Positions 44,924 through 54,137 of a stretch of DNA of 56,469 nt are shown piece by piece. The translations under genes were made by a program, and so were the position numbers. Source of the stretch: Candidatus Aegiribacteria sp. (GTDB lineage: Bacteria > Fermentibacterota > Fermentibacteria > Fermentibacterales > JCC-6); the NCBI GenBank assembly GCA_021108005.1, contig JAIORS010000172.1, positions 1 through 56,469 on the forward strand. The letters are read 5' to 3'. How positions within the stretch are numbered: position 1 is the first letter of the stretch; each line of letters begins with the position of its first letter. The notes below the pieces were generated by a model that saw only the letters and a program-made list of their open reading frames with translations, did not search any database and had not been told where the DNA came from.

Positions 44924-47203
44924 ATGAGATTTCTTTTTTCCGCTTTCATCGTTACCGCTTTTGCCTTCGCGACCGGACCCGGAAGTGTTTCCAGCTGGCA
45001 ATCCTTCGGTGGCTCAGCCGGTGAGATTCCTGAGGTGACAGTTCTTGAATCGGACAGTTACCATATGGTTGTAGAGGTGAATCTTCCAGGATTCAATCTG
45101 TACGATTCCCCTGCCGGTGGCAGAATATGGAACAGCGTTGAACTTCCGGATTGCTACTCTCAGGGCCCCGTTGGCCTGCCTGACCTGCCATCAGTAACGG
45201 AGATGTTCGCCCTTCCATTCGGAACGGAAGCTGTGGTTACTGTAGGGGGAGTCACTTCGACTGTTTACGCTAACATGGAAATCCTTCCAAGACAAACCCC
45301 CGAAATGGACAGCGAATCGTTCCAATTCGTTATCAGCGAAGATTTCTACCTGAACGGTGAGAGTTATCCCTCTTCATGGGCAAACATTGACAACGAGGGC
45401 TCCTGGTCGGGACTGAATGTGGCGAGACTCGTTTTAAATCCGTTCAGTTACAATCCTTCCACCGGAAACCTGGAAGTTGTAAACAGCATTACTTTAAGGA
45501 TTGACTTCGAGGGAACCGCTTCTCACATGGCCGGCCCGGTGAACCCTTCGATGGTTCCGGCAATGGAAAGATATGTGCTTAACTGGGATGTATTTGAGAT
45601 CACGGCGAATCCGATTGACGTTTCACGGGATGACGGAGTAGAGTACATTTTCGTGTGCACAGAGGATAATGTAGAATGGGTCAGCGAGCTCTTCGAAACC
45701 CATCATTACCTCGGCCTGCATACAATTGTGGAAACCCTGGCGGCCCCTGCCACGTGCACCCAGATAAAGAGTGCCATTTCAAGCAACTACCATAGCGGCG
45801 TAACGCGTTTCGCCTGTATTGTAGGGACCCACGATGAGATGCCTTCATATTCCTACGCTGGTGTAGAGGGGGATTATTACTACGCTCTTATGGATGCGGG
45901 AAATTATCCTGATATATCGGTAGGACGCATAACGGGCGATTCTGCACAGATAGTACACCAGGTGGAGAAAATTATCGATGGCTACGCCGACTACGATTTC
46001 AGTGTTCTAAGAACCCCTGGCATCATTCCAAGTGAAACTGTTCTCGCCGCGCACCAGGAAGATTATCCCGGCAAATATACTCTGTGCTGTAATCAGGTAG
46101 CCGGCTATTCCTACAGCCTCTGCAACATTACTTTCACTAAAGTCTTTCCGGATGAAGGCGGTACAAGAAATGATGTTATTGACGCCATAAACGGGGGTGT
46201 CGGGACGGTAGGCTACAGGGGACATGGCAGTTTTTATTCCTGGCAATGGTCCCCCGGCTGGGTGCCTTCGATCGTTTATGCCCTCACCAACAGCTATATG
46301 CCGCCCGTTTTCAATATCGCCTGCAACAACGGCATGTATCAATACGGCACGACATGTCTCAGCGAGGCATGGCAATGGGCCGAGAACGGAGCCAGCGGCA
46401 ATCTGGGAGCAACCAGAAGTTCCTACACTGAGCCAAATCATGACTACATGAAACAGATTTATATAGCGCTTTACGATACGGGAACTTATCGCGTATGTGA
46501 AGCTATCATGGAAGCCACAACCTATACCATAATCCAGCATGGCGGCCTTGCTCTAACAAATGCCAGGTGTTACATGTGGTTCGGAGACCCGGCAATGGAT
46601 ATCTGGACATTCGATTCCGCGGGACAGCCGGGAGAATTGAATATCTCCCAACCCGCGATTATTCTTCCGGGAAACCAGGACATAACCATCACCGTTACAG
46701 ATAATGGGTCCCCCGTAGAAGGCGTTAACGTTACTCTTACAGACGGCGTTGACAACTACGGTGGCGGTATGACTTTCTACGAAGAGGGAACAACCAACTC
46801 CTCGGGAGAGGTTACCATAAACGTTACCGTTCCCTCCAGCGGAACCGTCTACACAGGAGCTTATCTTCATAATTACAGGTACGACATCAAATGGGTTACG
46901 ATAGGAACAGGAATAGAGGGTTCGTCCGGAAATAGTACTGTTCTTCATCTTGGGAATCCCTCGCCTAATCCTGTTACGGCGGCAACGTCTCTGGCGTTCG
47001 GAGTACCCGCGGGCGGAAGCGTTCGTATATCTGTTTACGATGTCGCCGGAAGAATGGTGGAAACGGTTTTCGACGAACAGGTTGAAGGGGGAACTCACTC
47101 GGTTGAATGGAATCCCGGGAGATCTGTTTCCAATGGAGTGTACTTCGTCAAGCTGGATACTGAAGACGGGTCCGTTTCAAGACAGGTTATGGTCATCAGG
47201 TAA
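44924..47203 (+). CDS. Secreted gingipain-like C25 peptidase with C-terminal sorting domain (copy 2)
   Basis: A 759-residue close paralogue of copy 1, aligned along its whole length. Catalytic His434 lies in YRGHGS and Cys467 in NIACNNG. The N-terminal motif SSWQSFGGSAGEI is identical to that of copy 1, and the C-terminal domain ends MVIR. ATG at 44924 follows TGGAG and precedes a hydrophobic signal; earlier in-frame ATGs (44906, 44915) are less likely. The copies differ around the second active-site loop (YCGDY against NNGMY), so specificity may differ. It probably arose by tandem duplication. Confidence 0.92.
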   Translation: MRFLFSAFIVTAFAFATGPGSVSSWQSFGGSAGEIPEVTVLESDSYHMVVEVNLPGFNLYDSPAGGRIWNSVELPDCYSQGPVGLPDLPSVTEMFALPFGTEAVVTVGGVTSTVYANMEILPRQTPEMDSESFQFVISEDFYLNGESYPSSWANIDNEGSWSGLNVARLVLNPFSYNPSTGNLEVVNSITLRIDFEGTASHMAGPVNPSMVPAMERYVLNWDVFEITANPIDVSRDDGVEYIFVCTEDNVEWVSELFETHHYLGLHTIVETLAAPATCTQIKSAISSNYHSGVTRFACIVGTHDEMPSYSYAGVEGDYYYALMDAGNYPDISVGRITGDSAQIVHQVEKIIDGYADYDFSVLRTPGIIPSETVLAAHQEDYPGKYTLCCNQVAGYSYSLCNITFTKVFPDEGGTRNDVIDAINGGVGTVGYRGHGSFYSWQWSPGWVPSIVYALTNSYMPPVFNIACNNGMYQYGTTCLSEAWQWAENGASGNLGATRSSYTEPNHDYMKQIYIALYDTGTYRVCEAIMEATTYTIIQHGGLALTNARCYMWFGDPAMDIWTFDSAGQPGELNISQPAIILPGNQDITITVTDNGSPVEGVNVTLTDGVDNYGGGMTFYEEGTTNSSGEVTINVTVPSSGTVYTGAYLHNYRYDIKWVTIGTGIEGSSGNSTVLHLGNPSPNPVTAATSLAFGVPAGGSVRISVYDVAGRMVETVFDEQVEGGTHSVEWNPGRSVSNGVYFVKLDTEDGSVSRQVMVIR

Positions 47204-47303: not shown

Positions 47304-48569
47304 TTGACTGAAGAACTGAATTTCACCGCTGATATCCTGTGGCGGATACTGGATGTCACACGTCAGCTCAGCACCCCGATTAAGCTGGACGATATGCTCG
47401 TTCAAGTCGTTGATGTTGCCCGTGATGTTCTAAGGGCAGAGCGCGGAACTGTCTTCCTTTACGATAAAGAGAACCATGAACTATTCGCGGAAGTCGGCAC
47501 CGGTCTTGAGGTTGAGGAAATCAGGTTTCCGGCCGATCAGGGCATAGCCGGCATATGTGCCCGTACATGCAGCATTGTTAACGTTCCCGATGCCTATTCC
47601 CATGGAGGGTTCAACCCGGAAATCGATAGAAGGATGGGATACCTGACCCGATGCATATTGTCCGTACCGCTTGTTGGACTGGACGATTCGCTTGTCGGCG
47701 TCCTTCAGCTTATCAATAAAACCGAAGGTTCCTTCAGCACGGAAGATGAAAGGGTAGCGGAGGTTCTGGCTTCCCAGTGCGCTGTTGCCATTCAGAGGGC
47801 CAGACTGTTGCGGGAATACATTATCAAGCAGAAGATAGAGCATGACCTGGCCCTTGCCAGAGAAATCCAGAGGGAGCTTCTACCCGACAGTATGCCCGAA
47901 ATAGAAGGGTACGATCTGTCAGGCTGGAACGAACCCGCGGATCAGACCGGCGGTGACATTTTCGACGCTATCAGCCTTGACAATAGAAGCGTTCTGCTGC
48001 TTCTCGCCGACGCGTCCGGACATGGGCTCGGCCCCGCGCTTTCCGTAACCCAGTTTCTTGCGATGGTAAGGATGGCTTTCCGTCTACAGAGCAATCTCGT
48101 GAGTCTACACCGTCATACGAATAACCAGCTTGTAGAAGACCTTACCGCGGAACGATTCATTACGTCTTTCATAGGTCTGCTGAACGCTGAGGATAACACC
48201 ATCAGGTACCATGCCTGCGGACAGGCGCCTCTGCTTCATTACCACCGTTCAACCGGGAAAGTGGACATCCTGACGGCATCGGCTCTGCCACTTGGTATAA
48301 TGCCGGATATTCCCCTTGAGGCTCCGGAACCTATCTGCATGGATAAAGGGGATATTTTCGCTCTTATCTCCGATGGTATCTTCGAACAGGTAGATAACAA
48401 CGGGGAGCAGTTCGGTGTGGATAGAACCATTGGTATAATCAGTGATAACAGCATGCTTCGCATGAATGAAGTTGTAAATTTAATACACTCAGCGGTTGTC
48501 CTGCACGCAGGTAAAGCCATACAGGACGACGACATGACCATAGTTCTCATTAAACGGAATACGCACTGA
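47304..48569 (+). CDS. GAF-domain PP2C-type (SpoIIE/RsbU) serine phosphatase
   Basis: A 421-residue soluble protein: N-terminal GAF sensor (about 25-170), a coiled linker (DLALAREIQRELLP), and a PPM/SpoIIE phosphatase with GGDIFD, LADASGHG, DGIFEQVD and DDMTIV carrying the metal-binding Asp residues. Such enzymes dephosphorylate anti-sigma antagonists in partner-switching cascades; no antagonist or kinase is nearby. The start is a TTG at 47304 after GAGGGG (five-base spacing). The GAF ligand is unknown. Confidence 0.9.
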   Translation: MTEELNFTADILWRILDVTRQLSTPIKLDDMLVQVVDVARDVLRAERGTVFLYDKENHELFAEVGTGLEVEEIRFPADQGIAGICARTCSIVNVPDAYSHGGFNPEIDRRMGYLTRCILSVPLVGLDDSLVGVLQLINKTEGSFSTEDERVAEVLASQCAVAIQRARLLREYIIKQKIEHDLALAREIQRELLPDSMPEIEGYDLSGWNEPADQTGGDIFDAISLDNRSVLLLLADASGHGLGPALSVTQFLAMVRMAFRLQSNLVSLHRHTNNQLVEDLTAERFITSFIGLLNAEDNTIRYHACGQAPLLHYHRSTGKVDILTASALPLGIMPDIPLEAPEPICMDKGDIFALISDGIFEQVDNNGEQFGVDRTIGIISDNSMLRMNEVVNLIHSAVVLHAGKAIQDDDMTIVLIKRNTH

Positions 48570-48600: not shown

Positions 48601-50106
48601 ATGCAGAACAAAGGGTTCGACAACGAAAAGTACCTCGAGGAGCAGTCCGGGGAGATTCTGTCAAGAGTGGAAAATTCCAGAGGAAGGCTGTATCTGGAGT
48701 TCGGCGGCAAGCTGATGTTCGATCATCACGCCGCAAGGGTTCTTCCAGGTTACGACCCGAACGTAAAAATCAGTCTTCTTGAGAAACTGTGTGACAGGGC
48801 TGAGATCATACTATGCATATACGCAGGAGATATCGAGAAGAGAAAGATCAGAGGTGATTTTGGCATCACTTACGACGCGGATGCCCTTATGCTGATAGAC
48901 GGGTTCAGATCCAGGGGGATCAACCTCAGAGGAGTGGTAATTACAAGGTTCGAAGAGCAGCCCTCCGCCATCTCCTTCGAAAACCGCCTTAAAAGAAGAG
49001 GTGTCGATGTCTTCAGGCACTACTACACCAAAGGCTACCCTACCGATGTTGATCTAATCGTAAGCGAGGAAGGGTACGGCAGGAACGATTACATCGAACC
49101 CTCAAAGCCTCTTGTAGTTGTTACCGGACCAGGGCCTGGCAGCGGAAAGCTTGCCACATGTCTTTCACAGCTCTACCATGATTTTAAAAGAGGAGTACAC
49201 GCCGGATACGCGAAGTTCGAAACCTTCCCTATATGGAACATTCCTATAAATCACCCGGTGAACGCCGCGTACGAAGCGGCAACTGCTGACCTTCGCGATG
49301 TGAACCTGGTGGATCCCTTTCACCTTGAGGCCTATGGCAAAGTATCAATAAACTACAACAGGGATGTGGAGGCTTTCCCTCTTCTCAAGAGAATCCTTGA
49401 GAAGATTATTGGCGACAGGTCCCCTTACGCTTCTCCCACGGATATGGGAGTGAACAGGGCCGGATTCGGAATAACCGATGATCTTGTTGTCCGCAAAGCC
49501 GCAGAGCAGGAAATTGTCAGAAGGTATTTCAGGTACAGCTGCGAGTACGTCATGGGTCTTGCCGACCGGGAAACGGTTCAAAAAGCTGAACTCCTCATGA
49601 ACGATTACGGTCTGACTCCTGAAAGCAGGCCGGTCGTTGAGCCTGCCCGAAGCAATATCTGTTCAAATGAATCAAAGGATAATTCAGATTTCACGAAAGC
49701 AGCCGCACTGATGCTGAAAGACGGGACTGTAATAACAGGCAGGAGTTCGGAGCTCATGCACGCGTCCGCTGCCGTTGTTCTCAACGCTGTTAAGAAACTT
49801 GCCGGAATCAGTGAAGATATTCACCTTCTTTCGCCTGCCACCATTGAATCGATAAGAAAGCTGAAGAGAGCCGTGAAATCATTTCCCCTTCGACTTGATC
49901 TTGAGGAAGTTCTTGTCGCGCTTAGCGTTAACGCCGCCGTCTTCGCCCCTGCCGCGGATGGAATGGCGAAGCTTCCCGAACTGAGAAACTGCGAAGCCCA
50001 TCTTACCCATATGCCTGCGTCCGGGGATGAAAGTGGTCTGAGAACACTGGGTATTAATGTGACATGCGACCCGCTATTCGCAAGCAACAGGCTCTACGGT
50101 AACTGA
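48601..50106 (+). CDS. DUF1846-family protein
   Basis: A 501-residue protein with the whole-length pattern of the DUF1846 (UPF0371) family: LYLEFGGKLMFDHHAARVLPG at the N-terminus and TGPGPGSGKLATCLSQLYHD, a P-loop-like segment, near 177-196. Members occur in Firmicutes and Bacteroidetes; the role is unsettled, with a nucleotide-related function suspected. It lies 31 bases after the phosphatase gene. A 21-base inverted repeat follows at 50189. Confidence 0.9.
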   Translation: MQNKGFDNEKYLEEQSGEILSRVENSRGRLYLEFGGKLMFDHHAARVLPGYDPNVKISLLEKLCDRAEIILCIYAGDIEKRKIRGDFGITYDADALMLIDGFRSRGINLRGVVITRFEEQPSAISFENRLKRRGVDVFRHYYTKGYPTDVDLIVSEEGYGRNDYIEPSKPLVVVTGPGPGSGKLATCLSQLYHDFKRGVHAGYAKFETFPIWNIPINHPVNAAYEAATADLRDVNLVDPFHLEAYGKVSINYNRDVEAFPLLKRILEKIIGDRSPYASPTDMGVNRAGFGITDDLVVRKAAEQEIVRRYFRYSCEYVMGLADRETVQKAELLMNDYGLTPESRPVVEPARSNICSNESKDNSDFTKAAALMLKDGTVITGRSSELMHASAAVVLNAVKKLAGISEDIHLLSPATIESIRKLKRAVKSFPLRLDLEEVLVALSVNAAVFAPAADGMAKLPELRNCEAHLTHMPASGDESGLRTLGINVTCDPLFASNRLYGN

Positions 50107-50188
50107 GAATATGAGCTTATCCTCAAAGGTTCTTTGATTTGAGGACTTGACCCGGAGAAGAATATTTCCGATGATTGCCCTGTCGTTT

Positions 50189-50311
50189 GCTGCGCAACAG
50201 TTGCGCAGCCCGAAGTAACGCATGTTACCGGACCGGAAACGATGTTTGTACTCTAAATAGTGTACTCCTTCCGGTCGGGTTAAATAGCGTTTTAACCGTT
50301 TCAGGAAGGAG
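50189..50311 (+). promoter_or_regulatory. Structured leader of the rpsF operon
   Basis: Three structures lie upstream of rpsF: a 10-bp perfect inverted repeat around one A (50189-50209), which may terminate the previous gene; a GACCGGAA/TTCCGGTC stem (50231-50238 with 50269-50276) enclosing an inner GTAC hairpin; and a GGTTAAA/TTTTAACC hairpin just before the ribosome site GAAGGAG (50305-50311). The middle stem is a candidate S6:S18 autoregulatory element; the match is by position and structure only. Confidence 0.45.
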
Positions 50312-50319
50312 TTTTTGAT

Positions 50320-50673
50320 TTGCGAGACTATGAAACCGTAATAATCTGGAGTGCCAGCATCCCCGAAGCTGAAATCGAAAAGGAACACGATCGTGTTGTC
50401 GAGATCATCAAGGATGACGGAGGCACGTACATTGGTTCTGACAAATGGAGCCGCCGCATTCTTGCCTATCCCATCAAGAAACAGACCGAGGGTATTTACC
50501 ATTTTATGAAATGGACCGGCAGCAGTGATACTACAGCTGCTATAGAGAAGACCCTGAAGATCAATGACAGCTGCCTCAGGTATCTTACCCTTAGAACTGA
50601 CCTCGAAGAACCTGCCTCCGATGGTTCTTTTGATGATGGAAATGCGGAAGAAGATATGGAGAGCGGGGATTAG
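50320..50673 (+). CDS. rpsF: Small ribosomal subunit protein S6
   Basis: A 117-residue S6 (MRDYETVIIWSASIPEAE; RRILAYPIKKQTEGIYHFM) with an acidic tail (about 93-117) that exceeds the usual core. It binds S18 and 16S rRNA in the platform. The TTG at 50320 is the first in-frame start, eight bases after GAAGGAG. It heads rpsF-ssb-ssb2-rpsR. Confidence 0.96.
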   Translation: MRDYETVIIWSASIPEAEIEKEHDRVVEIIKDDGGTYIGSDKWSRRILAYPIKKQTEGIYHFMKWTGSSDTTAAIEKTLKINDSCLRYLTLRTDLEEPASDGSFDDGNAEEDMESGD

Positions 50674-50675
50674 TA

Positions 50676-51137
50676 ATGGATCTGAGAATGCCCAGCATCA
50701 ATAAGGTCATAATCTCCGGGAATCTTGTCCGTGACCCGGATACAAGAATTCTGGAGAACGGAACTCACCTTGCAAAAATGTCCATAGCAAACAACCAGCG
50801 CTACCGCGACAGAAGTGGGGAATGGCAGGAAAAGACATGCTACGTTAATGTTGTAGCATGGAGAAAAACCGCAGAACTGGTAGGCGAATTCTGCAGAAAG
50901 GGTTCCCCTGTATTGATTGAGGGGGAGCTTATCTACAGTTCCTGGGAAGACCGGGATGGCAGTAAAAGAAGCAGGCTGGAAGTAAACGCCAAGAGAATAC
51001 AGTTTCTCGAGAAAAAGGGTGGTCAAAGTTCTTCCTACACGGATGACTCTCCGGAACAATCCAGCAGAGCTTCGAGTAGTAACGAGAACGATTCCGCGTC
51101 GGATTCAATGGCGCAGGATGACGATATCCCGTTCTAA
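50676..51137 (+). CDS. ssb: Single-stranded DNA-binding protein
   Basis: A 153-residue SSB: OB fold (about 1-105; INKVIISGNLVRDPDTR, WRKTAELVGEFCRKG), a disordered Ser-rich linker, and the conserved acidic tip DDDIPF that recruits partner proteins. It lies two bases after rpsF. ATG at 50676 or at 50688 may be used. Confidence 0.96.
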   Translation: MDLRMPSINKVIISGNLVRDPDTRILENGTHLAKMSIANNQRYRDRSGEWQEKTCYVNVVAWRKTAELVGEFCRKGSPVLIEGELIYSSWEDRDGSKRSRLEVNAKRIQFLEKKGGQSSSYTDDSPEQSSRASSSNENDSASDSMAQDDDIPF

Positions 51138-51142
51138 TCAGT

Positions 51143-51490
51143 ATGACTGACCTTCATGAAACCCCTGAATTGAACTACATCGTCATAACCGGACGGATAA
51201 GTAAGAAGAGTGAGCTTAAATCGTCCAGTTACGGCATTTTCGTAATAAGGTTCGATGTAGAAAACTGCGTTTCATATAGTGACGCGAACTCGGAAGAAAG
51301 TAAGAAAACCTACGTCATCAGTATTGAAGCATGGGGAAACCTGGCGGAAAGAATTGACCGCAGTATTTCAAATGGAATGTTCGTATTAATCGAGGGCAGT
51401 CTCGTCAGCAGAACTTACGAAGACAGATCAAAAGGATTACACCATAGAATGGTCGTAAAGGCATCCGACGTAACAGCGTTAGGAACCTGA
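51143..51490 (+). CDS. Second SSB-like OB-fold protein, no acidic tail
   Basis: A 115-residue OB-fold protein of SSB or PriB type (YIVITGRISKKSELKSS, IEAWGNLAERIDRSI, FVLIEGSLVSR). It lacks the linker and the DDIPF tip, so it should not recruit the usual partners. It may act in a heteromer with SSB or as a primosome-like factor. It sits between ssb and rpsR, and no good ribosome site is seen, which suggests coupling to ssb. Residues are too diverged for a firm family call. Confidence 0.75.
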   Translation: MTDLHETPELNYIVITGRISKKSELKSSSYGIFVIRFDVENCVSYSDANSEESKKTYVISIEAWGNLAERIDRSISNGMFVLIEGSLVSRTYEDRSKGLHHRMVVKASDVTALGT

Positions 51491-51520
51491 TCATAAAGAC
51501 CGTCAGGAGGAATCGATTAA

Positions 51521-51775
51521 GTGGCAAAAAAAAGGATGAAAAAGAAGAGCAGCAAATTCGGACGTAAAAAGAAATGCCGTTTCTGCGGAAATCCTAATCT
51601 GGAAATATCGTACAAGAGCGAAAGGATGCTTCAGAGGTACGTTTCGGACAGAGGAAAAATCGTAGCAAGACGAGTTACAGGCAACTGCGCCAAACACCAG
51701 AGAATGGTCGCCAACTCCATCAAGGTCGCGCGGTTCCTTGCCCTTGTTCCCTACGTTAGAGAACACTACAGATAA
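51521..51775 (+). CDS. rpsR: Small ribosomal subunit protein S18
   Basis: An 84-residue S18 with a basic N-terminus, CRFCGN and the core NCAKHQRMVANSIKVARFLAL. The CxxC plus NCAKH suggests a zinc-binding (C+) form. GTG start, ten bases after AGGAGG. Confidence 0.96.
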   Translation: MAKKRMKKKSSKFGRKKKCRFCGNPNLEISYKSERMLQRYVSDRGKIVARRVTGNCAKHQRMVANSIKVARFLALVPYVREHYR

Positions 51776-51793
51776 ACCTGCAGCATACCTGAG

Positions 51794-52666
51794 ATGCAAA
51801 AGACGTCGGGAGGAGCAGGAAATGGATTCTTCGGTATCATCGCCGTTGGGATAATTCTTGTTCTCATGGGGGTTCCATTCGTTGGAATGACCATAATGTC
51901 GGTCATGATGGTTGCCCGGAACTCTAAATTCGGTCTGCCCATGGCGCTTGCGACTCTTTTTGTGGTTTTTCTTATCTCCGACTTCTCGGGTGCTCTTATC
52001 GCGGCGACCGGATCAGGAATCATCGTTACCTTTGTAAGGTCCGGCAGAAGTTTCAGATTCTCTCTGACAGTTGCCGCGGCAGCTACGGCGCTGGCCTGCA
52101 TTTTCGGGACTTTGCTTCTTCTGCAGAAGTCCATGCTGTCCAGCGAGAACGTTCAGGTTCTCATGCAGTTCTACGGTTCGGCGGGAATGAGCTCATCTGA
52201 AATACTTTTCGTAATGGACCTGTTACTCTATATACTGCCGGCCCTTCTGGCTTTGTGGGCAGTGGCAGGTGTTATCACCTCAGCAGTTGCAGCCAGGCTT
52301 GTAAGCAGAAGGAGAGGCGTATGGCCGGATCTGCCCCGTGAAGATTCCCTGAGGCTGGGTCTGCTTCCCGCCTGGATACTGATAGCGGCCCTGGCGGTGA
52401 ATCTCACCGGCAGCAGTTTTCCCCCGTACCTTCAGCAGGCTGCCGTGAATATTTCGATCTTCATGATTCTACCTTACTCAGCTGTGGGATTGGCTGTGTG
52501 CAGAAAAGTACTGTCTATTTATCCCCAGAGCTTTATACTGGCAATCCTTGTGGGAATAATCTTCCCTCCGATTGCCGTTGGATTGCTCATGATTGCCGGT
52601 ATCCTTGATACATGGTTTGATTTCAGAACACGTCTAAACAGAATGGATGAAAGGAAAAATTCATAA
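51794..52666 (+). CDS. DUF2232-family membrane protein
   Basis: A 290-residue protein with about eight membrane helices and the C-terminal DTWFDFRTRL segment typical of DUF2232 (YybS-like) proteins, which often sit between rpsR and rplI. Function is not known. It overlaps rplI by one base. No clear ribosome site precedes the ATG at 51794. Confidence 0.85.
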   Translation: MQKTSGGAGNGFFGIIAVGIILVLMGVPFVGMTIMSVMMVARNSKFGLPMALATLFVVFLISDFSGALIAATGSGIIVTFVRSGRSFRFSLTVAAAATALACIFGTLLLLQKSMLSSENVQVLMQFYGSAGMSSSEILFVMDLLLYILPALLALWAVAGVITSAVAARLVSRRRGVWPDLPREDSLRLGLLPAWILIAALAVNLTGSSFPPYLQQAAVNISIFMILPYSAVGLAVCRKVLSIYPQSFILAILVGIIFPPIAVGLLMIAGILDTWFDFRTRLNRMDERKNS

Positions 52667-53118
52667 TGAAAGTACTACTTATAAAGAGTGTGGAAGACCT
52701 CGGCCTGGGGGGGGATGTTGTGGATGTAGCCGATGGATACGCCAGGAATTACCTTTTCCCTCGAAATTTCGCGGTAAAAGCAACTCCCGCTGCCGTTAAA
52801 TCGACCGAAATCTACAGGACAAAAGCCTTGAAGGAACAGGTCAGAATATCCGAAGAATCCAGGCAGTTCGCGGATAAACTCAAGGATTTTGTTGTCGAGA
52901 TTACAGCCGCTGCGGATGACACCGGACATCTTTACGGAAGTGTCAGTGAAAGAAACATCTGCGAGATTATCAACGAATCCGGCTTCGATATAGATGTTGA
53001 ACAGGTACTTCTCGATGAGCACTTTAAAAAAACGGGAGAGTATTCTGTCTCCATTAAAATTTACGGAGACATCCGTACAGACGTACTGGTCAGGATTCTC
53101 CCCGAAGAGAACAAGTAA
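52666..53118 (+). CDS. rplI: Large ribosomal subunit protein L9
   Basis: A 150-residue L9 with N-terminal domain (MKVLLIKSVEDLGLGGDVV, ARNYLFPRNFA), central helix and C-terminal RNA-binding domain (DDTGHLYGSVSERNI). ATG shares a base with the previous stop; AAAGGA lies upstream. Confidence 0.97.
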   Translation: MKVLLIKSVEDLGLGGDVVDVADGYARNYLFPRNFAVKATPAAVKSTEIYRTKALKEQVRISEESRQFADKLKDFVVEITAAADDTGHLYGSVSERNICEIINESGFDIDVEQVLLDEHFKKTGEYSVSIKIYGDIRTDVLVRILPEENK

Positions 53119-53123
53119 TCCCT

Positions 53124-54137
53124 TTGAGAATTCTCGCAGTAGAAACATCCTGCGATGATACAGCGGTTGCACTGCTCGATGGATGCAGTGTAATCGCTGA
53201 ACGCGTCCACAGCCAGGAAATACACTCGCGACACGGGGGTGTCGTCCCCGAACTGGCGTCACGGAATCATATGAAGGTACTTCCGGAGCTTGTGAAAGAA
53301 GTTCTGCATGCCGGAGGGATGAACAGTTTCGAAAAAATCGATGCTTTCGCTGCTACCGCAGGTCCGGGATTGACAGGCTCTTTACTTGTAGGTCTTGCCT
53401 GGACCAAGGCGGCCGCATGGGCTTCCGGTAAAGTCTTCCTGGGGATAAATCACCTTGCGGCACATCTTTACATTCATTATGGAGGAAATCGACATGTTGT
53501 CTTTCCAGCCGTTGCCCTTCTTGTCTCCGGTGGTCACACCAGCCTTTTTACAATGAACTCATGGGAGGAGATTCTTCTTCTCGGCTCAACAAGGGATGAC
53601 GCTGCCGGAGAGGCTTTTGACAAAACCGCGAAACTGACCGGTCTCGGCTACCCGGGGGGCGCTGCTCTTGATCTTGCCGCCGACAGGGGAGACCCCGACA
53701 AAGTACGCCTGCCCTCCCCGCTGGCCGATCCGTCTCTGCCCGAATTCAGTTTCAGCGGTCTTAAGACAGCGGCCAAACTCCTCTGGGAGAAAGGAGAAGA
53801 TCGCTGTAACCTCGCGGCTTCGTTCAGAAAGACCATTGTGGATATCCTGGTATCGAAACTGATGTACCAGAGTGAGAAACTTGGCGCGCAAAGTGTTCTT
53901 GCAGCGGGTGGCGTTTCTGCCAACAGCCTTCTGAGACAGGTTCTGCGAAAGGAATGTTCGGAACGTAACTTGAATCTGTTTCTTCCTGACAAAGAGCATG
54001 CCACGGATAATGCGCTAATGGTAGGACGTGCCGCCGCGGCCATTCTTGAACGAGATCCTGAGGCATTTTCACCTCTTTACTGTAACGCTTTCGCAAGATG
54101 GTCGGGAAAAAATCTTTCTCCAATAACTTGCTGCTGA
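53124..54137 (+). CDS. tsaD: tRNA threonylcarbamoyladenosine transferase TsaD
   Basis: A 337-residue TsaD: ETSCDDT at 7-13, HSRHGGVVPELASR, a metal-binding NHLAAH pair, and LLVSGGHT. With TsaB, TsaE and TsaC it makes t6A37 on ANN-reading tRNAs. Start is the TTG at 53124, five bases after rplI; the ribosome site is weak. The other Tsa genes are not in the window. Confidence 0.96.
   Translation: MRILAVETSCDDTAVALLDGCSVIAERVHSQEIHSRHGGVVPELASRNHMKVLPELVKEVLHAGGMNSFEKIDAFAATAGPGLTGSLLVGLAWTKAAAWASGKVFLGINHLAAHLYIHYGGNRHVVFPAVALLVSGGHTSLFTMNSWEEILLLGSTRDDAAGEAFDKTAKLTGLGYPGGAALDLAADRGDPDKVRLPSPLADPSLPEFSFSGLKTAAKLLWEKGEDRCNLAASFRKTIVDILVSKLMYQSEKLGAQSVLAAGGVSANSLLRQVLRKECSERNLNLFLPDKEHATDNALMVGRAAAAILERDPEAFSPLYCNAFARWSGKNLSPITCC

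Follow-up and report, generated by a model that had tools for sequence, protein, structure and literature searches.

A divergent, tail-less SSB paralog is fixed beside ssb in the S6-S18 operon of Fermentibacteria and may act as a PriB-like accessory protein

A second single-stranded DNA-binding protein (SSB) gene, ssb2, lies directly behind the canonical ssb in the ribosomal S6-S18 operon of Fermentibacteria, a bacterial phylum without cultured members, and encodes a divergent OB-fold protein, SSB2, that lacks the acidic docking tail. We describe it from a window of Candidatus Aegiribacteria sp., the window being the whole stretch of DNA analysed (56,469 nucleotides of contig JAIORS010000172.1, with all genes of the operon on the + strand), and from comparison with the rest of the phylum. 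The gene itself, its fixation throughout the phylum and the divergence of its product are secure, and the family and history of SSB2 are well supported. As to function, we tentatively propose from the comparative analysis that SSB2 is an accessory OB protein which came to resemble PriB by independent evolution and would work with SSB or PriA. This PriB-like role is our best single guess, and a mixed complex of SSB2 with the canonical protein (SSB1) is its main rival.

The operon in the window has the order rpsF-ssb-ssb2-rpsR-(membrane protein)-rplI. It opens with rpsF (50320..50673, TTG start) for ribosomal protein S6 (PF01250, 82 bits; TIGR00166, 64.6 bits), followed by ssb (50676..51137; PF00436, 112.2 bits; TIGR00621, 135.5 bits), whose product is a canonical SSB ending in the DDDIPF tip, with D150, I151, P152 and F153 invariant in the SSB1 alignment. 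The ssb2 reading frame (51143..51490, 115 aa, ATG start) begins 5 nt past the ssb stop codon. SSB2 scores above the Pfam gathering cut-off of the SSB family (PF00436, 57.6 bits against 26) and below the curated cut-off of the canonical SSB model (TIGR00621, 45.8 bits against 53.95); its C-terminus reads ALGT and the acidic tip is absent. The short OB-fold gene without DDIPF that the original prediction had placed in the rpsF-rpsR operon is present at this position. Downstream are rpsR (51521..51775, GTG start; ribosomal protein S18; PF01084, 76.9 bits; TIGR00165, 90.8 bits), a gene for a membrane-type protein of about 290 aa (51794..52666), which gave no Pfam match and is kept at the same place across the phylum, and rplI (52666..53118; ribosomal protein L9; PF01281 and PF03948). 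Just upstream of the operon lie genes for a GAF-SpoIIE phosphatase regulator (47304-48569) and then a full DUF1846 protein (48601-50106). The window also carries a Gingipain-type C25 peptidase with a propeptide and a Por secretion tail (44924-47200), the tail presumably pointing to a type IX secretion system.

In all 17 rows of the genus (L001-L017), 5 nt separate the ssb stop from the ssb2 ATG (51138..51142 in the window), and the ATG is not preceded by a Shine-Dalgarno-like motif. The other 22 rows have gaps of 6-15 nt, and such a motif was seen in 15 of all 39 rows, every one of them within those 22. Judged from this spacing, translation of ssb2 is likely coupled to that of ssb by termination-reinitiation in this genus.

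SSB and SSB2 were both present in 40 of the 42 Fermentibacteria genomes searched. The two genomes without the full pair are G026, in which the contig ends just past ssb, and G051, which is 68% complete and gave no match at all. Of the 41 genomes that gave a match, 38 carry rpsF-ssb-ssb2-rpsR in this order on a single contig, and there is no counter-example, since the remaining three (G004, G008 and G026) are broken by contig ends. Leaving out the truncated SSB2 of G004 and the second loci of G021, G023, G046 and G048, an IPF terminus occurs in 0/39 SSB2 compared to 40/40 complete SSB1 sequences. Named genomes yielded 18 loci when scanned: 17 belong to Candidatus Aegiribacteria, Candidatus Fermentibacteria or Fermentibacteraceae MAGs (48-82% identity), and the remaining one is a weak Enterococcus match (31% identity). 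Among the matches listed for a 16-row SSB2 profile, 28 within the phylum scored at least 122 bits and the best from 212 outside genomes 80.7 bits. The 47 distinct non-phylum loci examined in detail encode ordinary SSBs, most of them adjoining rpsF and rpsR.

Tandem ssb genes at the rpsF-rplI operon were also found outside the phylum in at least two genomes, G167 (L101) and G186 (L102), so that duplication of ssb at the rpsF-rpsR locus has occurred more than once. The second copy of G167 is tail-less yet retains F54, V58, W60, K73, W88 and R96 (SSB sites are numbered after E. coli SSB, except where residues of the window proteins are named), that of G186 retains a tail (DDDMPF), and both sit among ordinary SSBs in the tree. 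Among the matches listed, strong remodelling of the second copy is confined to Fermentibacteria. At the G186 locus the order is rpsF-ssb-ssb-rplI with both SSBs tailed, and rpsR was not found in the stretch examined. In one Fermentibacteria MAG (G040, locus L040), both rpsF and the gene for the membrane protein are split between frames, probably through assembly errors.

Trees were built with 17 of the 39 SSB2 sequences in both cases and with 17 SSB1 sequences in the first and 9 in the second. The second tree also took in 25 of 49 outside SSBs and 19 of 29 PriB-type rows, 9 of these 19 scoring below the TIGR04418 cut-off and being named by position and weak score only; L104 (the same record as L100) and the fragment out_L146_2 were dropped. 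SSB2 was monophyletic in the first tree (97/71), in the second tree with its broad PriB set (100/99) and after removal of the four longest rows (SH-aLRT 99), and SSB1 was monophyletic in both (100/100 and 100/99). A single clade of SSB1 and SSB2 was not rejected (p = 0.5; p = 0.437 in the AU test with the broad PriB set), and neither was one of SSB2 and PriB (AU p = 0.464), although the best topology of the second tree places these two apart without significance. The phylogeny with SSB and PriB that had been suggested as a check therefore yielded a single SSB2 clade but an evenly split placement, because the alignments hold only 113-124 columns. A grouping of SSB2 with PriB in the first tree was discarded: E. 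coli PriB is one very long branch there, and with 19 PriB-type rows the two separate, although not significantly. Since the AU test does not distinguish the two groupings, synteny and phyletic distribution, rather than the tree, carry the case that SSB2 is independent of PriB.

SSB2 evolves faster than SSB1 but under purifying selection. Over the same genome pairs, SSB2 paths are in the median about 4.5 times longer than SSB1 paths, and in 15 close pairs dN/dS ranged from 0 to 0.32 for SSB2 (median about 0.08) and from 0 to 0.16 for SSB1 (median about 0.03). Conservation, constraint and phylum-wide presence rule out a chance ORF, a pseudogene or an assembly artefact. As ssb and ssb2 are neighbours throughout the phylum, the simplest origin would be a tandem duplication of ssb. 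SSB2 is an old tandem-type paralog, neither a recent transfer nor a pseudogene.

Canonical SSB binds ssDNA tightly as a tetramer. In E. coli SSB, Trp40, Trp54, Phe60 and Trp88 stack on the ssDNA, and they are described as not conserved in Klebsiella PriB (PMC8509808); the contacts of Pseudomonas SSB with ssDNA include Lys7 and Glu80 (PMC8775380). We compared these sites in the 17-row tree sample of SSB2 and, where a total of 39 is given, in all SSB2. SSB2 falls short of the canonical-SSB test of four stacking aromatics at sites 40, 54, 60 and 88, with an aromatic at site 54 in 0/17, at site 40 in 24% and at site 88 in 65%. Basic residues are gone from sites 7, 41, 43, 62, 73 and 96 (0/17 at the K7 site, 12% each at the K73 and R96 sites), whereas N6 is fully retained and W60 and E80 are present in 17/17. 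SSB2 has gained acidic residues at sites 35, 58 and 68 and basic residues at sites 17, 93, 98 and 102. In the window protein, E40-N41 (51260..51265) align with A35-T36 of E. coli SSB, the change of A35 to E occurring in 34/39 SSB2. In the residue alignment, V58-W64 (51314..51334) correspond to E. coli sites 54-60 and have lost the aromatic at 54, carry E62 in place of V58 and retain W64 at the F60 site; N77 (51371..51373) occupies the K73 site, at which K or R is found in 3/39 SSB2 compared to K in 35/35 SSBs. The mean charge summed over sites 33, 35, 54, 56, 58, 60 and 73 is -2.6 in SSB2, -0.4 in PriB and +1.1 in SSBs, and these sites were picked after looking, so the unselected residue lists above are the fairer view. 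From strand alternation, sites 35 and 58 would face the DNA side. At the level of aligned residues the canonical ssDNA face of SSB2 is rewired, and its binding of ssDNA is probably weak or altered. An AlphaFold model of SSB2 built on 18 rows has an OB fold (pLDDT 81.9, pTM 0.71). The solved folds nearest to this model are bacterial SSBs, and the best 50 Foldseek rows are all SSBs; fold scores are tied and do not discriminate (SSBs from Z 15.0 down, Bordetella PriB at Z 14.4).

The classic example of a duplicated SSB that became a primosome protein is PriB; it binds PriA, SSB and DnaT and promotes DnaB loading, and it is not known from outside the proteobacteria. Its origin from Ssb was reported by Ponomarev et al. 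2003, as summarised in PMC8509808. The E. coli priB gene sits between rpsF and rpsR, in agreement with the original prediction that PriB arose at a similar place. SSB2 lies between the same two genes, but the predicted insertion into the operon took a different form: the extra gene is there, added after a normal ssb, whereas E. coli priB stands alone and ssb is elsewhere. The clearest change common to both proteins is A35 to E, found in 13/17 SSB2 and 15/19 of the PriB set and in 0/35 SSBs (A in 35/35), and V101 to L is also common to both. At an 80% threshold 43 columns are conserved in SSBs; SSB2 has lost 15 of these and PriB 13, with 9 losses common to the two (Fisher p = 0.004; p = 0.047 for the 32 columns at a 90% threshold), the test having been chosen after looking. 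Any OB protein that no longer acts as an SSB may repeatedly lose its DNA-contact sites in this way. Shared PriB-type changes are few, the new majority residue being common in only 3 columns, and 4 SSB-type columns lost in PriB remain in SSB2.

By membership SSB2 is not PriB, since it scores 21.7 bits with the PriB model TIGR04418 (21.3 bits in the genome search) against a cut-off of 72. Even this weak match carries no signal, because 22/22 ordinary SSBs, hand-picked from outside loci for a control that also held E. coli SSB, match the model as well (best E value 3.7e-9); matches to the PriB_gamma model at E ≤ 0.1 (36/39 SSB2, 4/16 SSB1) were rejected as a PriB signal on this ground. E. coli PriB docks on PriA via His26, Glu39, Arg44 and His81 (PMC10175261). 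These residues are mostly absent from SSB2, and the sites vary within the PriB set too, His26 occurring in 6/19. PriA scored above its cut-off in 33 of the 42 Fermentibacteria genomes, and the PriA of the window organism carries N, F, N and E at the positions of E. coli D438, S481, T482 and H483. A PriA of the phylum is located at G000:C209:14239-15735. The independent PriB-like invention that had been thought possible thus keeps the local, vertically inherited OB gene, the tail loss and DNA-face changes at partly the same sites, and loses PriB membership and most of the docking residues; SSB2 could still work like PriB. In the phylum of G325, which carries a true PriB, many genomes (L174-L190) have a PriB-like protein of about 120-160 aa in the rpsF-X-rpsR slot. 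These proteins score below the TIGR04418 cut-off, have a common motif close to NQKRWIRDG-IRWGQ-EL-A and, on this sequence pattern, may form a second PriB subfamily.

Other readings of SSB2 were weighed against the same data. SSB2 might join SSB1 in mixed dimers or tetramers, in which only some OB folds would grip ssDNA and fewer tails would be shown. Deinococcus SSB offers a parallel, as a single chain with two unlike OB folds and one tail, and the best PDB matches of the SSB2 profile are the two-OB SSBs of Deinococcus and Thermus (90.3 and 85.4 bits), a ranking that partly reflects length because scores add two domains per chain. Co-assembly is also favoured by the adjacent genes with their fixed 5-nt gap in the genus and by the full retention of N6, W60 and E80, but the loss of K7 from all 17 SSB2 speaks against it, and we consider such a partner subunit somewhat unlikely. 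If SSB2 were comparable to SsbB, coating ssDNA without a tail in a specialised process such as transformation, it should retain the DNA-gripping residues, but it has lost site 54, K7, K73 and R96, whereas the unrelated tail-less tandem copy of G167 retains all of F54, W60, K73, W88 and R96. This reading draws on S. aureus SsbB, which is among the folds nearest to the SSB2 model, and on reports that two cyanobacterial SSBs consist of the OB fold only (PMC3976300) and that the SsbB proteins of B. subtilis and S. pneumoniae are specific to competence (PMC3128108). A channel-type ComEC piece occurs in the phylum, but ComEC scored above the family cut-off in 0/42 genomes, and we judge an SsbB-like coat unlikely. 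In the phylum ComEC seems to be split (G000:C154:30671-31405 and others): one ORF, of about 435 aa, covers the channel only, while the C-terminal part of the model is matched by ORFs of their own. None of these pieces reaches the family cut-off. Alternatively, SSB2 may have ceased to be a DNA protein and bind RNA or S6/S18, for example in regulating its own operon. In favour of this, the gene is locked in the ribosomal operon phylum-wide and the canonical ssDNA face is altered; however, the operon position alone says little because plain ssb occupies the same slot in many bacteria, and no known leader RNA family (Rfam) was found over 49900-53300, where there was one sub-threshold match only. 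Such a role appears quite improbable.

Descent of SSB2 and proteobacterial PriB from one ancestral duplication, by common descent or by transfer, would make SSB2 a true PriB. The AU test did not reject the clade, the two changes at A35 and V101 are common to both, and E. coli PriB scored 49.9 with the SSB2 profile compared to 34.3 with an SSB profile. A fuller PriB profile reversed this order, with ordinary SSBs at 119.2 and SSB2 at 86.2, and SSB2 itself matched best with SSBs (148.7). Among 385 genomes around the phylum a single one had a PriB above cut-off, and ssb still adjoins ssb2; we regard a true PriB as very improbable. The last reading, that SSB2 was captured recently from a phage or plasmid, was rejected; grouping with such SSBs had been named as the result that would refute the original prediction. 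SSB2 does match the phage SSB family phrog_44 (59.2 bits), but the best matches listed from 50,697 phage and 72,556 plasmid records are only about 27-36% identical, viral contigs gave 5 matches at 23-31% identity, SSB2 is joined by none of the 8 sequences from phages and plasmids that the tree included, and the synteny is vertical and phylum-wide. We give capture next to no credence.

In the account that we favour, ssb was duplicated, probably in tandem, ahead of the split among the sampled members of the phylum, and the pair has been inherited vertically since. The second copy shed its linker and DDIPF docking tail and then changed rapidly while a new constraint acted on it. Both proteins would be produced from the S6-S18 operon, SSB2 in this genus via translational coupling to the ssb stop, and SSB2 would have an OB fold that lacks the four aromatics with which ssDNA is usually wrapped. 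It could act as an accessory subunit beside SSB at ssDNA intermediates and pass these on, or form a bridge, to a restart factor such as PriA or to the replicative helicase. Such a role would match that of E. coli PriB, although the interface would have evolved separately. A more specific claim, that SSB2 represents a second independent origin of a PriB-type restart factor from ssb, phylum-fixed beside ssb, with parallel changes of the DNA face and a different PriA interface, is possible but doubtful. If true, it would be a natural replicate of the route from SSB to primosome protein. With a paralog that is present phylum-wide in the operon that holds priB in E. coli, still adjoins ssb and has a strongly rewired DNA face, Fermentibacteria provide a second lineage for testing the route from SSB to accessory factor. 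The automatic annotation "single-stranded DNA-binding protein" probably misleads for SSB2. The literature searched, which excludes most subscription journals, held no paper joining Fermentibacteria with single-stranded DNA-binding and none on the ssb2 gene.

Compared to known systems, SSB2 belongs to the same family and fold as the canonical bacterial SSB (PF00436, TIGR00621), but it has no linker or DDIPF tip, its DNA face is rewired and it falls below the TIGR00621 cut-off. It resembles the SsbB-type or OB-only SSBs of B. subtilis, S. aureus and Anabaena (Alr0088 and Alr7579) as a tail-less or short second SSB alongside a full SSB in the genome; it differs in having lost the DNA-gripping residue set and in adjoining ssb in the operon, the B. 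subtilis SsbB gene sitting elsewhere. As with the two-OB SSBs of Deinococcus-Thermus (1se8, 2fxq), one locus gives two SSB OB folds and one tail, in one fused chain there and from two separate genes in Fermentibacteria. The tandem copies of G167 and G186 likewise place a second SSB gene directly after ssb in the rpsF-rplI operon, but unlike SSB2 they have kept a normal SSB sequence. PriB (TIGR04418) and SSB2 are both small, tail-less OB proteins of SSB descent in the S6-S18 operon, and both have lost the site-54 aromatic, K62, K73 and R96; in contrast to PriB, SSB2 keeps W60 and E80, has gained an acidic residue at V58, which is not a PriB feature, and still has ssb as its neighbour.
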